Shown here: piece after piece, positions 6,730 to 12,634 of the stretch
How positions within the stretch are numbered: position 1 is the stretch's first letter
How the letters are laid out: the number at the start of each line of letters is the position of its first letter
Source of the DNA: a bacterium
GTDB taxonomy: Bacteria > Bdellovibrionota_C > UBA2361 > OMII01
Assembly: GCA_017853605.1 (NCBI GenBank)
Contig: JAFMJG010000006.1
Location: 1 to 43,494 of the forward strand
Reading direction: 5' to 3'
Length of the DNA: 43,494 nucleotides
Notes under the pieces: model-generated
Database searches by the model: none
Seen by the model: only the letters and a program-made list of their open reading frames with translations
Told to the model about the DNA's origin: nothing
Position numbers and translations under genes: made by a program

Positions 6730-7611
6730 TCAAGCCCGACGTCCGGCATCCTTCCCAGAAGGAGTTCCTGCTGAACCACGCGGACGCCTCATCTGAAGCA
6801 CTGCGCCGATGAGCAGCGTAATGAGGGCGATGAAGGCCCACTCGTACACGTACCCCAGGTGGATGTCCGGAGGCGGGGTCGTGTCGTACGCCGGCACCGG
6901 GTAGTCCGCTTCAGGGGAGTCCATGCCAAAGTTTTGTGCGCCCGACTGGCCAGCCATATTGAGCACGTCGTGACGTCCAGCTTCGCTGGCCTTGAGGATC
7001 TGGGAGGGGAGGAGGGGATCGTTCGGATCCTTCATCGTCTCCAAGTACACTGGCAGCACGCGATAGGGGAGCTGCCGCGATATTCGGCCGATATCGACCC
7101 GCAGCCACTGGTCAACCCACGGCCCGCCCGGGACAGGTTCAGGATCATTGGGGGCCAAGAGCTTCGGGCTAACTGATTGCTTGATAAGGCCATACAACTC
7201 GGCATGCGCGGGGCGCTGGTATCGCTCTCGCTCCGTCCTTCCTTCACGCCCCAGGGGGATAAAACCCCGATCCACGAGCACCCGAACGTCACCAGCTCCG
7301 TCGATGAGCAGTGGCGTGATGACGTGTACCCCTGCGCGTCCATCAAAGGAGCGGTTCCGAAGCAGGAACTCGTGCTCGAAATCAAAGCTGCCTGAGAGCT
7401 TTACCCGCCGCCACGACAGGGCCCCCCAGTCGGGGTTCCCGGTAATCAGCTCAGCGAGGGACACGGGTGCGAGCGTAAGCGTTTCGTGAAGGGTGCTGAT
7501 GAGGGATTGCTTCTCGAGGTGCCGAGTCCACTGCCAAGCGCTCATGCCGAGCATCGAGGCAGCGAGCAGGGCACAGGTTGCTGATGTCTTTAGGGAGAAG
7601 CGAAAGCTCAT
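6730..7611 (-). CDS. SURF1 family protein (cytochrome oxidase assembly)
   Basis: A 293-residue inner-membrane protein with the SURF1 topology: a first helix at about 10-27 ending in the hallmark WQWTRHLEK, a large periplasmic domain, and a second helix at about 254-273 in GYVYEWAFIALITLLIGA. Internal marks include RVLVDRGFIPLG and LRNRSFDGRAG, both typical of SURF1/Shy1. The family helps insert heme a or otherwise mature subunit I of aa3-type cytochrome c oxidases. No oxidase structural genes lie in this window. ATG 7611 is chosen over a start 24 codons upstream because it starts just before the membrane helix. The gene diverges from the ketosynthase pair. Confidence 0.93.
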   Translation of the reverse strand: MSFRFSLKTSATCALLAASMLGMSAWQWTRHLEKQSLISTLHETLTLAPVSLAELITGNPDWGALSWRRVKLSGSFDFEHEFLLRNRSFDGRAGVHVITPLLIDGAGDVRVLVDRGFIPLGREGRTERERYQRPAHAELYGLIKQSVSPKLLAPNDPEPVPGGPWVDQWLRVDIGRISRQLPYRVLPVYLETMKDPNDPLLPSQILKASEAGRHDVLNMAGQSGAQNFGMDSPEADYPVPAYDTTPPPDIHLGYVYEWAFIALITLLIGAVLQMRRPRGSAGTPSGKDAGRRA

Positions 7612-7889
7612 TGTGACAGGATAGTATCCCGTAGCTGGCCTGCCGTGAAGGAGCGCCCCGGTTGCCCCTAAAACGGGCGACATCGCTCAGCAGTTGCTCC
7701 GGCTGGAGCCTGCGGCACCAATTGAGCGAGTGGCGGCAGCTGTGCGCAGAAGGATTTTTATAACTACCTGAAATTAGGGGGCTGCGGAGGTTGTACTCGA
7801 ACTCCAACGGAGTGGTATCCTCTGCACCCATACGCGGGGGTGGCAGGAGCGTGGAAGCTCGTTCCACCAGAGGGGGAGATTTTCCAAAA

Positions 7890-8858
7890 ATGTTCATACT
7901 AGGGGCCGGCGCTTCGTATCCAGAGGGGGTCATCACGGATAGTGATCTGGCCGCGCTCGGGATCCCCCTGTCTGCGGCAACCCAGGATGCGCTTGCAAGA
8001 AGCGGGGTGAAGGCCCGCAGGACGATCCTTCCCGATGGTTTCATCCGAACTCACAAGGGTGCGGATGTGCTTCAGTCGCGAGCCGCCGCAACCTCTTCGC
8101 CCACGGCTCTAGGCCTCGCTGCAGCGCGCCAGGCTCTTGCCCGCGCCGGTGTTGCTGCAGAACAGGTTGGCCTCGTCCTGGCTGATTGTGCGACTCCACG
8201 CCAGACCTGCCCATCGGAGGCCCAGAGGATTGCGGGCTCCCTGGGACTCAAGGTTCCTGCCTACGACATTACTGCTGGCATCGGGGCATTAGCTCTCGTT
8301 CTCGATGTGCTCGGCTCGTGGAAGCCGGAGCGCGTTCCAGACTACGTCCTGTGCATGTCGACAAACACTCCGACAGAGCTCGTTCGCTACGGGGAAGATC
8401 CCCTTGCCGCGAGCCTTCTTGGCGATGCCGCTTCGGCAGTGGTCGTGTCCCCCAGGCACCGCGCAGGCCTCGAGGCCAGGAGATCGTTCCTGACGCGGGA
8501 CCGCTCGGTGCGCCCCCCAGTTTCAGTCTCCCGCGCGGTTTCCGTTGATCTCTCCATGCCAGGCGAGCTGCTCCGCAATCAGCTCAGCTCGGGGCTCTTG
8601 CAGCTTGGCGCTCCCAAGGCAGCGCGCCTCATCGGTCCGCAGCTCTTTGGCGCCGAGCTGCAGCGCATAGCAGCGAGCTTGTCGGTCGATCCCGACAAGG
8701 TCGTCGACTCGGCCAAGGAGGCGGGCTACTCGCTCGGCTCGAGCTTGGGCTGCGCCCTCTCTGCTGTGTGGGATGAGGTGTCACGGGGCGAGAGCGTGGC
8801 AATTCTTCATGAAGGCGATGGCATCTCAGCTGGTGCGCTATTAGAGAGAGTGGGCTAG
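7890..8858 (+). CDS. KAS III-like (FabH-fold) protein lacking the catalytic triad
   Basis: A 322-residue thiolase-fold protein, clearly related to 3-oxoacyl-ACP synthase III: CATPRQTCPSEAQRIAGSLG and VPAYDITAG match the FabH fold, and the next gene is its active paralogue. Alignment by eye to that paralogue shows all three catalytic residues replaced: Cys by Ile 131 (in DITAGIGAL), His by Pro 250 (IGPQ) and Asn by Ser 284 (LGSS). It is therefore probably not a condensing enzyme by itself. Inactive KAS III partners are known, for example PqsB in the PqsBC heterodimer, so a structural or regulatory partner role is my inference. ATG 7890 has AGGGGGAGA at 7871-7879. The next gene starts 7 bases after its stop. 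Confidence 0.88.
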   Translation: MFILGAGASYPEGVITDSDLAALGIPLSAATQDALARSGVKARRTILPDGFIRTHKGADVLQSRAAATSSPTALGLAAARQALARAGVAAEQVGLVLADCATPRQTCPSEAQRIAGSLGLKVPAYDITAGIGALALVLDVLGSWKPERVPDYVLCMSTNTPTELVRYGEDPLAASLLGDAASAVVVSPRHRAGLEARRSFLTRDRSVRPPVSVSRAVSVDLSMPGELLRNQLSSGLLQLGAPKAARLIGPQLFGAELQRIAASLSVDPDKVVDSAKEAGYSLGSSLGCALSAVWDEVSRGESVAILHEGDGISAGALLERVG

Positions 8859-8865
8859 GGAGCAT

Positions 8866-9849
8866 ATGCTTGACATTCTCGGGATGGGAACGTGCCATCC
8901 AACCACATCCATCGACAACAAGTTCCTCGAGGCGCTCGATGTCGGCACCAATGCCCAGTGGATCGAGGAGAAGATCGGAATTCTTGAGCGCGTTACGACG
9001 CTGACGGCAGACTACATAAAGACCACGCGCAACCAAGACCCTCGCATGGCGGCCGAAATTGCTTCCATGTCGGCCACGGACATGGGAACGGAGGCGGCAA
9101 AAAAGGCGCTTGCCCAGGCTGGTATCGCTGCCAAGGATGTCGGGATGATAATCGTCAATTGCTGCGCGCCGAGGGAGACCCTTCCGGGGGAGGCAGTGCG
9201 CATCGCCGAGCGCCTTGACTGTCCTGGGGTTGCCTACGACGTCTACACGGCCTGCCCTGCATTTGCCCTGCACGTGGACTTCCTGCGCAACTTTAGGGAA
9301 GAGGAGCTTCCGGAGTTTGTGCTCTGTATCTCGACAGCCGCGATGACGCAGCACGTCAACTACAATGACCGTTCAGACGGGGCGATCTGGGGAGATGGCG
9401 CCGCAGCGTGGGTCATGTCCGCCCGCCACAAGGGGAAGCTTGAGGTGCTGGAGAGCTTCTTTACGGCAGATCCGACCCGGTGCGAGGCGGTTGTCGTCGA
9501 CAGCTTTGGCTTCTTTAGGCAGGACGGCAGGGCTGTGCGCGACTTCTCCGTGCGCCAGACAGTGCGCCTCGTCAAGTCGATAGAGGAATCACACGCGATT
9601 GACTGGGGCCGAGACGTGTTCATCGGCCACCAGGCCAACCGCACCATGCTCGAGCAGATCGTCAACAACCGCGACATCCCCGCGTCGAACCACTGGCACA
9701 ACGTGACCTACCTTGGCAACCAGGCGGGCGCTGGAGCTCCTGCGGTGCTCTCGATGCACTGGGACAAGATCGTCCCGGGCCAGCACATCGTTGTGGCTGT
9801 TGTGGGAGCGGGGCTTTCGTGGGGATCAATCGTGATGCGCGCGCGCTAG
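8866..9849 (+). CDS. 3-oxoacyl-ACP synthase III family ketosynthase, catalytically complete
   Basis: A 327-residue KAS III-like enzyme. The Cys-His-Asn triad is intact: Cys 130 in YDVYTACPAF, His 255 in GHQANR and Asn 285 in YLGNQAGAG. The family condenses an acyl primer (usually acyl-CoA) with malonyl-ACP or another acyl thioester by decarboxylative or related Claisen chemistry. The N-terminus (GMGTCHPTTSIDN) is FabH/OleA-like, but the primer and product cannot be read from sequence. The Shine-Dalgarno GGGAGC lies between the preceding stop and ATG 8866, so the pair is one operon. No acyl carrier protein, malonyltransferase or reductase gene is nearby. Its stop overlaps that of the converging gene in the four bases CTAG. 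Confidence 0.93.
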   Translation: MLDILGMGTCHPTTSIDNKFLEALDVGTNAQWIEEKIGILERVTTLTADYIKTTRNQDPRMAAEIASMSATDMGTEAAKKALAQAGIAAKDVGMIIVNCCAPRETLPGEAVRIAERLDCPGVAYDVYTACPAFALHVDFLRNFREEELPEFVLCISTAAMTQHVNYNDRSDGAIWGDGAAAWVMSARHKGKLEVLESFFTADPTRCEAVVVDSFGFFRQDGRAVRDFSVRQTVRLVKSIEESHAIDWGRDVFIGHQANRTMLEQIVNNRDIPASNHWHNVTYLGNQAGAGAPAVLSMHWDKIVPGQHIVVAVVGAGLSWGSIVMRAR

Positions 9850-11313: not shown

Positions 11314-12390
11314 CTATGAGCCGGAGTCCGCCGCCTCGTTCTCCTGCTGGCTGAACTCCTCCTTGATCTTTTGGGCAAACTCAACTGCAACTGGCGACCT
11401 GTTCCTTTCAATCACGGAATCTACATACTCCTGGAGGCCGTCCTCGAGGTTCACATGTTCCATTGCATCCTTGAGCAGGGCGCGGTCGGCCTCTGGGTTC
11501 TGCGAGGACTCAAGCTCATTGAAGACCATCATGAGCCCCGGCATGCCAGAGTTGAGCGCAGACTTCACCCACAGGTGGGAGTAGCTGTCGCGCTGGTTGA
11601 TGAGCGGCTGCACGGCGGGAAGGGAGTCCTCGTCCAGGATCATCTCTCCCGGCCCGATGCCAGACGCGTAGTAGCCATCTGGATCGCCCCGCTCGCGAAT
11701 GTGGTTGTTGAGGAGCTCCACCGCCTGCACCGTCCCCTGGTTTGTGATCGCCGCGACCGAAGCCTCCCTAAGGGTGTCATTTGGGGAAACCATCTGATCG
11801 CCGAGAAATCGGACGACATCCTCATTGCCGAGCGCGAGCTCGACGGCTTCGGCGTACAGGTCGGCGTCCTCGTTTGTTCGGGCGCTCTTGATAGAGTCGA
11901 CGAGGGCCTGCACGTTCTCAAGCCGCCCGCTGATCGCCAAGATCTCGGCCATATAGGCGCGCTGCTCTTGGGGTGTTGAGGGGTCAGAGGTCTTTTCGCG
12001 GACAGACTCATAGAAGGCCGGGCACCACGAGCAGTCGGGCCCTGGCAACGTGAACTGCTCAAGAATAGAGTCATCATAGTCCTTGCTACCCTTGAGGATC
12101 GCTTCCATTGCAGCGTCGGCCGATGGATATATCTCTGAGGCAGGCTTTACCTGCGGCAGGCTCTCAGAGTCGTCCGTCTCCTCGCGGTCAGCCAGGCTCT
12201 CGCGCCCGATCGGGATCGGATTCGCCACTGAGCCCCCAGTTGAGGGGGAACCAGGCTTGGGATTTGCAGGCTGTCGGGCTTGAGGGGTGTTATTGTCTGC
12301 GACCCTCTCTGAGCCTCGCGGTCGGCTGAAGGAGTAAACGGCGGCGGCTATAACTGAGAGGAGGATAAGGGGGACGATAGCTTTCTTCAT
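11314..12390 (-). CDS. Membrane-anchored protein with helical (HEAT-like) repeats and a CxxC motif
   Basis: A 358-residue protein. Residues 3-20 form a signal anchor or signal peptide. A low-complexity Pro/Gly/Ser/Asp linker covers about 24-85. Helical repeats cover about 90-345, with spacing reminiscent of HEAT/ARM repeats (for example VRFLGDQMVSPNDTLREASV). A CSWC pair at 120-123 sits at the start of the folded part and could form a disulfide or hold a metal. I do not recognise a named family. ATG 12390 is preferred to a start 53 codons upstream because it begins the hydrophobic segment and has AAAGG before it. It probably faces the periplasm. Confidence 0.75.
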   Translation of the reverse strand: MKKAIVPLILLSVIAAAVYSFSRPRGSERVADNNTPQARQPANPKPGSPSTGGSVANPIPIGRESLADREETDDSESLPQVKPASEIYPSADAAMEAILKGSKDYDDSILEQFTLPGPDCSWCPAFYESVREKTSDPSTPQEQRAYMAEILAISGRLENVQALVDSIKSARTNEDADLYAEAVELALGNEDVVRFLGDQMVSPNDTLREASVAAITNQGTVQAVELLNNHIRERGDPDGYYASGIGPGEMILDEDSLPAVQPLINQRDSYSHLWVKSALNSGMPGLMMVFNELESSQNPEADRALLKDAMEHVNLEDGLQEYVDSVIERNRSPVAVEFAQKIKEEFSQQENEAADSGS

Positions 12391-12634
12391 GGTTCGGTTA
12401 CCTTTGGGGATCAACACCAAGCTGCTCGGACGCCTGTAGAGGGGGAATATTTCTCGGCGCCCCAAGCGAGCTCCTACGTTATAGAGGCAAGTGGCCCGAA
12501 GGGAAAGGTCAAAAGCCCCAAGAATCATCGCTATGAGCTTGGTATTCATGGATTTTTTGCGGAAGCCACAGTGTGCAAGTTAGGCCCAGCTAGAGCTGTC
12601 CAAGGGCGTTAAGGCTCATGCGACCCCTATCATC

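Follow-up and report, generated by a model that had tools for sequence, protein, structure and literature searches.

A KAS III-fold protein without its active site, kept beside a catalytic partner across an uncultured bacterial order, as the probable pocket-shaping half of a heterodimer

Why should a ketosynthase gene that has lost every catalytic residue be kept, directly upstream of a catalytic homologue, across an order of uncultured bacteria? The question is raised by two adjacent genes, here called A and B, in a stretch of bacterial DNA of 43,494 nucleotides that was analysed as a whole (the window). The positions of the two genes, of the residues discussed below and of a divergent neighbour are collected in Table 1.

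Table 1. Coordinates in the window of the A/B gene pair, its key codons and the adjoining SURF1 family gene
Feature	Position	Strand	Basis or remark
Gene A, KAS III-fold pseudo-ketosynthase, 322 aa, without Cys/His/Asn	7890..8858	+	
Gene B, catalytic KAS III, 327 aa, with Cys130/His255/Asn285	8866..9849	+	
Spacer between A and B, 7 bases, stop to start	8859..8865	+	coordinates
Codons of A 103-113 (PRQTCPSEAQR), equivalent of the E. coli FabH Phe87 loop	8196..8228	+	1ebl alignment, conservation scans
Codon of A Ile131, in place of the nucleophile Cys	8280..8282	+	alignment
Codon of A Pro250, in place of the catalytic His	8637..8639	+	alignment
Codon of A Tyr280, in place of the catalytic Asn	8727..8729	+	alignment
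Codon of B Cys130, nucleophile, motif ACPAFALH	9253..9255	+	sequence, alignment
Codon of B His255, motif GHQANRTML	9628..9630	+	sequence, alignment
Codon of B Asn285, motif GNQAGAGAP	9718..9720	+	sequence, alignment
SURF1 family gene, divergent neighbour of the pair	6730..7683	-	position next to the pair conserved throughout the order and in the outlying family f14

The original prediction described two well-aligned KAS III-fold genes seven bases apart. The coordinates agree with this description, as does an alignment of A with B from end to end (31% identity, E 5e-43), and the start codon of A is supported by its close homologues, all of which begin at the same methionine. The nearest NCBIfam models of both proteins are of the FabH type, with both scores under every curated cut-off; in Pfam, the two ACP_syn_III cut-offs are passed by B, and A falls slightly short. 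AlphaFold2 monomer models have a mean pLDDT of 92.6 for A and 86.6 for B, and they match the E. coli and Aquifex FabH structures over their full length (TM about 0.8 or higher), as five-layer thiolase folds. The catalytic residues announced for the second gene, Cys130, His255 and Asn285, are all present in B, and the triad is kept in 21 of 21 B partners. For the first gene, Ile, Pro and Ser had been named at the same places: Ile131 and Pro250 are right, and the third residue is Tyr280, Ser281 lying one column off, a correction that leaves the point unaffected.

A search for the same pair in relatives had been proposed along with the prediction, and the two genes turned out to keep their pairing, gene order and close spacing throughout a taxonomic order. 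With B as the query, a scan of 84,980 public genomes returned 19 homologues at 58-88% identity over their length, plus one weak match elsewhere; the 19 come from metagenome-assembled genomes labelled Deltaproteobacteria, Oligoflexia, Bdellovibrionales, Dadabacteria or just bacterium. An A-type gene lies directly upstream and in the same direction in 18 of the 19, the exception being L023, and the gap between the two genes ranges from a 4-base overlap to 46 bases (19 pairs, including that of the window). Plasmid-borne relatives, among the best matches listed, were generic KAS III proteins only, at about 25-28% identity. Within a phylum set of 46 genomes, 29 of them belonging to the window's order, B was found in 25 of these 29, as well as in two members of another family (f14), and full-length A adjoins B in 23 of the 25. 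Directly upstream of B in the two f14 genomes lies a shortened A of 218 or 256 aa (L056:2475-3131 and L057:2512-3282, both on the minus strand), of which mostly the N-terminal half remains, including the interface loop; by hhalign, this assignment is supported for L056 (E 2e-5) and weak for L057 (E 0.007, probability 5%). Shortened forms of about 283 aa also occur in L022 and L053. A is absent beside B in G018, a 94% complete genome with a B locus (L045) identical to L023, and in G023 (70% complete; L055), and the places concerned are L023:7763-7995 and L055:2547-2638. No genome holds A without B, save G005, where the first 130 residues of A lie at a contig end and B is missing.

Loss of the active site is general among the relatives of A. 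The original prediction held that A would be a decaying copy if its homologues usually kept Cys-His-Asn; none of the 21 full-length A homologues does, a catalytic Cys or His being found in 0 of 21 and the Asn alone kept in three, with Pro at the position of the catalytic His in 13. Set against the complete triad of every B partner, these counts exclude chance as the source of the split into dead and active proteins. Across the 21 pairs, every B has Cys, His, Asn, Trp32, Lys36, Arg169 and Asn258, whereas the corresponding positions of A are scrambled; positions that behave in this way include the B equivalents of FabH Trp32, Arg151 and Asn247, which in FabH make contacts to CoA or the active site. 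Yet A is under purifying selection, looser than that acting on B. In comparisons of close A pairs, about 60% of third codon positions and 15-24% of second positions are different, and the corresponding second-position differences in B amount to 4-7%; at fourfold sites A is as diverged as B, and at second positions it evolves about three times faster. Ten residues are invariant across 21 A sequences. In a phylogenetic tree, A and B come out as sister clades, the branch that separates them having 100/98 support, and both are set apart from FabH, from an OleA-like protein and from another KAS III of these genomes, a topology that fits one duplication, after which A would have lost its active site early.

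What selection has kept in A is concentrated in a loop which, in enzymes of the FabH type, crosses from one monomer to the other. In FabH-type homodimers, the Phe87 loop is supplied by the other monomer, and residue 87 sets chain length, Phe87 versus Thr87 corresponding to acetyl-CoA versus long-chain preference in the FabH of E. coli versus M. tuberculosis; in PqsD, the acyl channel is lined by Asp87 and Pro88 of the second chain (PMC3734052). An A/B heterodimer predicts an asymmetry in this region, with the loop of A, reaching into the live site, constrained and the loop of B, reaching into the dead site, free to drift. The loop is indeed the best-conserved stretch of A: mean pairwise identity over A 105-114 is 0.72, compared with 0.33 over the whole of A (circular-shift p about 0.003), whereas the same columns in B give 0.53, compared with 0.66 over the whole of B. 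When every aligned 10-column window was scanned, the excess of A over B was largest at A 103-112, and that of B over A was largest at A 221-233, over the nearly invariant QDGRAVRDFSVRQ segment of B. An interface-wide comparison found the equivalents of FabH 105-130 and 180-200 not specially conserved in A, so that the interface segments that stand out are the crossing loop and the one immediately following. Within the loop, Cys107 aligns without gaps with E. coli FabH Phe87 (1ebl alignment), and relatives of A have Cys, Thr, Ile or Val at this position; by analogy with the FabH work cited above, a small residue here suggests an acyl chain longer than acetyl. Thr106 and Gln112 are invariant or nearly so in A and variable in B. 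The sole invariant acid of the A loop, Glu110, lies three residues past the Phe87 position and is equally invariant in B.

The B proteins found without A provide a natural experiment on this loop. In both of them (L023 and L055) it reads QTTPxExQ, which is the A type. The motif [QE]T[CTI]PxExQ, which was defined after the sequences had been seen, is present in 20 of 22 A proteins, in 0 of 23 B proteins with an A neighbour and in 2 of 2 B proteins without one, these last standing for two lineages only, one of them from a genome (G023) that is about 70% complete. When all B proteins were scored against an A-derived profile, the two A-less ones ranked above all others in likeness to A in 11 of 312 windows, and 9 of these windows lie over the loop. 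In the B tree the two fall on separate branches, L023 having as its sister L021, an A-bearing lineage, and L055 having f14 as its sister. In f14, where A is shrunken, both partners, as read from the sequences, are without the Glu and Arg of the loop. Since B persists alone in two lineages, it can work without a full A. It could be hypothesized that A was lost twice and that an A-type loop then appeared in B, restoring a self-sufficient homodimer, and that across the lineage the enzyme is otherwise a heterodimer in which the loop of the dead subunit sets, in trans, the acyl specificity of the live one; we place the odds on this scenario at about even. If a loop lent in trans was indeed regained in B, it would become directly testable how a heterodimer with a dead subunit evolves and how it is reversed.

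The comparisons made here point to A and B as an obligate heterodimer that has a single active site, located in B, and an acyl pocket shaped by A, a reading to which we assign a probability of roughly 0.8. That the dead subunit of a heterodimer shapes the pocket had already been proposed for this locus, and the proposal gains support from the conserved pairing, from the selection on A, from the conservation of its loop and from the loops of the A-less B proteins; it is from these that we infer the physical dimer. An old tandem duplication would have given rise to A and B. Cys130 of B would take an acyl group from CoA (or ACP), and His255 and Asn285 would run the condensation in the manner of FabH. 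A, with its own active site and CoA contacts lost, would make up the second half of the dimer, and its loop 103-113 would cross the interface into the acyl pocket of B, setting the shape of the pocket and the choice of substrate.

Other readings of the pair lead to different expectations for A. If it were a functionless decaying duplicate, the disappearance of all its catalytic residues, its fast evolution, its shortening in L022, L053 and f14 and its absence beside B in two genomes would be readily accounted for. However, because A is under purifying selection, it is not decaying; it has stayed open and adjoining B across an order, with its invariant residues and a hyper-conserved loop. Decay is largely refuted by codon selection together with conservation and pairing, and we consider it highly improbable. 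A and B might instead form separate A/A and B/B homodimers, A being a repurposed binding protein or regulator (e.g. an acyl-CoA or lipid sensor) that is merely co-transcribed with B. Pseudoenzymes often become regulators, and A has kept a complete fold, to judge from its pLDDT, but its pocket and CoA positions are not conserved, unlike what a sensor needs, and the part of it that is conserved is the cross-subunit loop. The dependence of A on B in its distribution and the A-type loop of the A-less B proteins also speak against separate homodimers, which we regard as unlikely.

A further possibility is a sub-case of the heterodimer, and its probability overlaps with that of the main reading: A could give a chemical group to the active site of B, which would then run a non-FabH condensation. 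Cross-dimer catalytic Glu residues are known, such as Glu117 of OleA and Glu105 of PpyS (PMC4578411), and the activity of LstAB requires Glu60 of LstB, being lost with the E60A substitution (PMC12141560); in A, the specific and near-invariant Thr106 and Gln112 sit in the crossing loop. No A, however, has an acid at the Phe87 position, and because Glu110 is just as invariant in B, a chemical contribution by A, while possible, is less supported than a structural, pocket-shaping role, and we find it rather unlikely.

Among known systems, PqsBC of Pseudomonas aeruginosa is a FabH-type heterodimer encoded, like the A/B pair, by adjacent genes, and likewise includes a protein, PqsB, in which all three catalytic residues are missing (PMC4807248). 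The C-terminal half of PqsB has drifted beyond easy alignment, and the active-site cavity of PqsBC extends toward the partner (PMC4807248). PqsC has only Cys and His, with Val at the Asn position, whereas B has the full triad, and PqsBC belongs to an alkylquinolone operon, whereas the A/B pair has no linked pathway gene: pqsA- and pqsD-type genes are not found beside it, their place being taken by SURF1, O-antigen ligase-type and housekeeping genes. PqsB and PqsC are also absent from the best 60 PDB matches of the A or B profile, below which a weak kinship may lie. The lipstatin synthase LstAB is likewise encoded by two adjacent KAS III-like genes, with the Cys-His-Asn triad in LstA, and LstA and LstB are reported to be soluble only if co-expressed, neither forming a stable homodimer (reviewed in PMC12141560). 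It differs in belonging to a beta-lactone cluster, in joining two long acyl-CoAs and in the essential Glu60 of LstB; among the A sequences, no A-specific conserved acid was seen that might compare with this Glu, the only invariant acid of A, Glu110, being shared with B. Neither the window nor the related loci were seen to contain lipstatin-type (beta-lactone) genes. KS-CLF of type II polyketide synthases and ApeO-ApeC follow the logic proposed for A/B, in that a working ketosynthase is paired with an inactive homologue by which chain length is set; these are KAS II-type (FabF-like) enzymes with a Cys-His-His site, whereas A and B are of the KAS III type. The A/B pair would work like PqsBC and LstAB but appears to be a separate duplication, to judge from the PDB matches, from gene context and from the Asn that B has and PqsC lacks.

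The FabH/KAS III homodimer shares with the pair its fold, the triad, the Trp32/Arg151-equivalent contacts of B and the crossing Phe87 loop, but B scores 131.8 bits and A 58.4 against the curated FabH cut-off of 292.1. The possibility that B is the only FabH of the organism was rejected, since a separate FabH on C184 scores 332 bits, above the cut-off. An OleA-type assignment was also rejected: B scores 59.9 bits versus a PRK09258 cut-off of 285, and an OleA-like gene with ole-like ORFs is found elsewhere (C173). Membership of A/B in PqsBC or OleA is not supported by profile scores, PDB matches or gene context.

Few KAS III heterodimers with an inactive subunit have been described; PqsBC and LstAB were found in the open-access literature, each in a dedicated secondary-metabolite cluster. 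No earlier report of the A/B pair was found in that literature, and this pair is kept across an uncultured order without a linked cluster. Its natural variants form a graded set, from an intact through a shrunken to a missing A, and make the recruitment of a dead subunit, what such a subunit needs (apparently one loop) and its undoing testable.

That no pathway gene lies nearby, as first noticed, is borne out by the neighbours of the pair, namely SURF1, an O-antigen ligase-type protein, metH and other housekeeping genes. None of the conserved neighbours (the divergent SURF1 gene, a Wzy_C protein and a secreted coiled-coil protein) points to a substrate. The position of SURF1 beside the pair is conserved from the genus out to f14, and the 206-base gap between SURF1 and A (window 7684-7889) is perhaps a shared promoter region. 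The secreted coiled-coil family, recognized by GRLPDGRAYRTDxxGNQIVDYIAELE near its start, is encoded by the gene directly after B in the more distant relatives but is not found there in the window's genus (examples are L014:9111-10208, L056:989-1588 and their equivalents), and it has no Pfam family above cut-off. Another conserved downstream gene, present in 12 of the compared loci, encodes a 411-aa protein, also without a Pfam match (window 11314-12549, minus strand).

Because the genome contains a FabH of its own, as well as OleA-like and type III polyketide synthase-like genes, ordinary fatty acid synthesis can be initiated without B. On contig C173 of the genome (G000; L081:2095-6652), an OleA-like gene, named from its match to an OleA-type model and cut by the contig end, is followed by an apparent fused OleB-OleC ORF of 871 aa and an OleD-like reductase, the OleB-, OleC- and OleD-like names coming from reading the sequences; this arrangement suggests long-chain olefin synthesis. 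On contig C8 (L079:3970-8165), genes again named from sequence reading include a type III polyketide synthase-like gene beside an isoprenylcysteine methyltransferase-like gene and, about 2 kb off, a rhodopsin-like gene beside a carotenoid desaturase-like gene.
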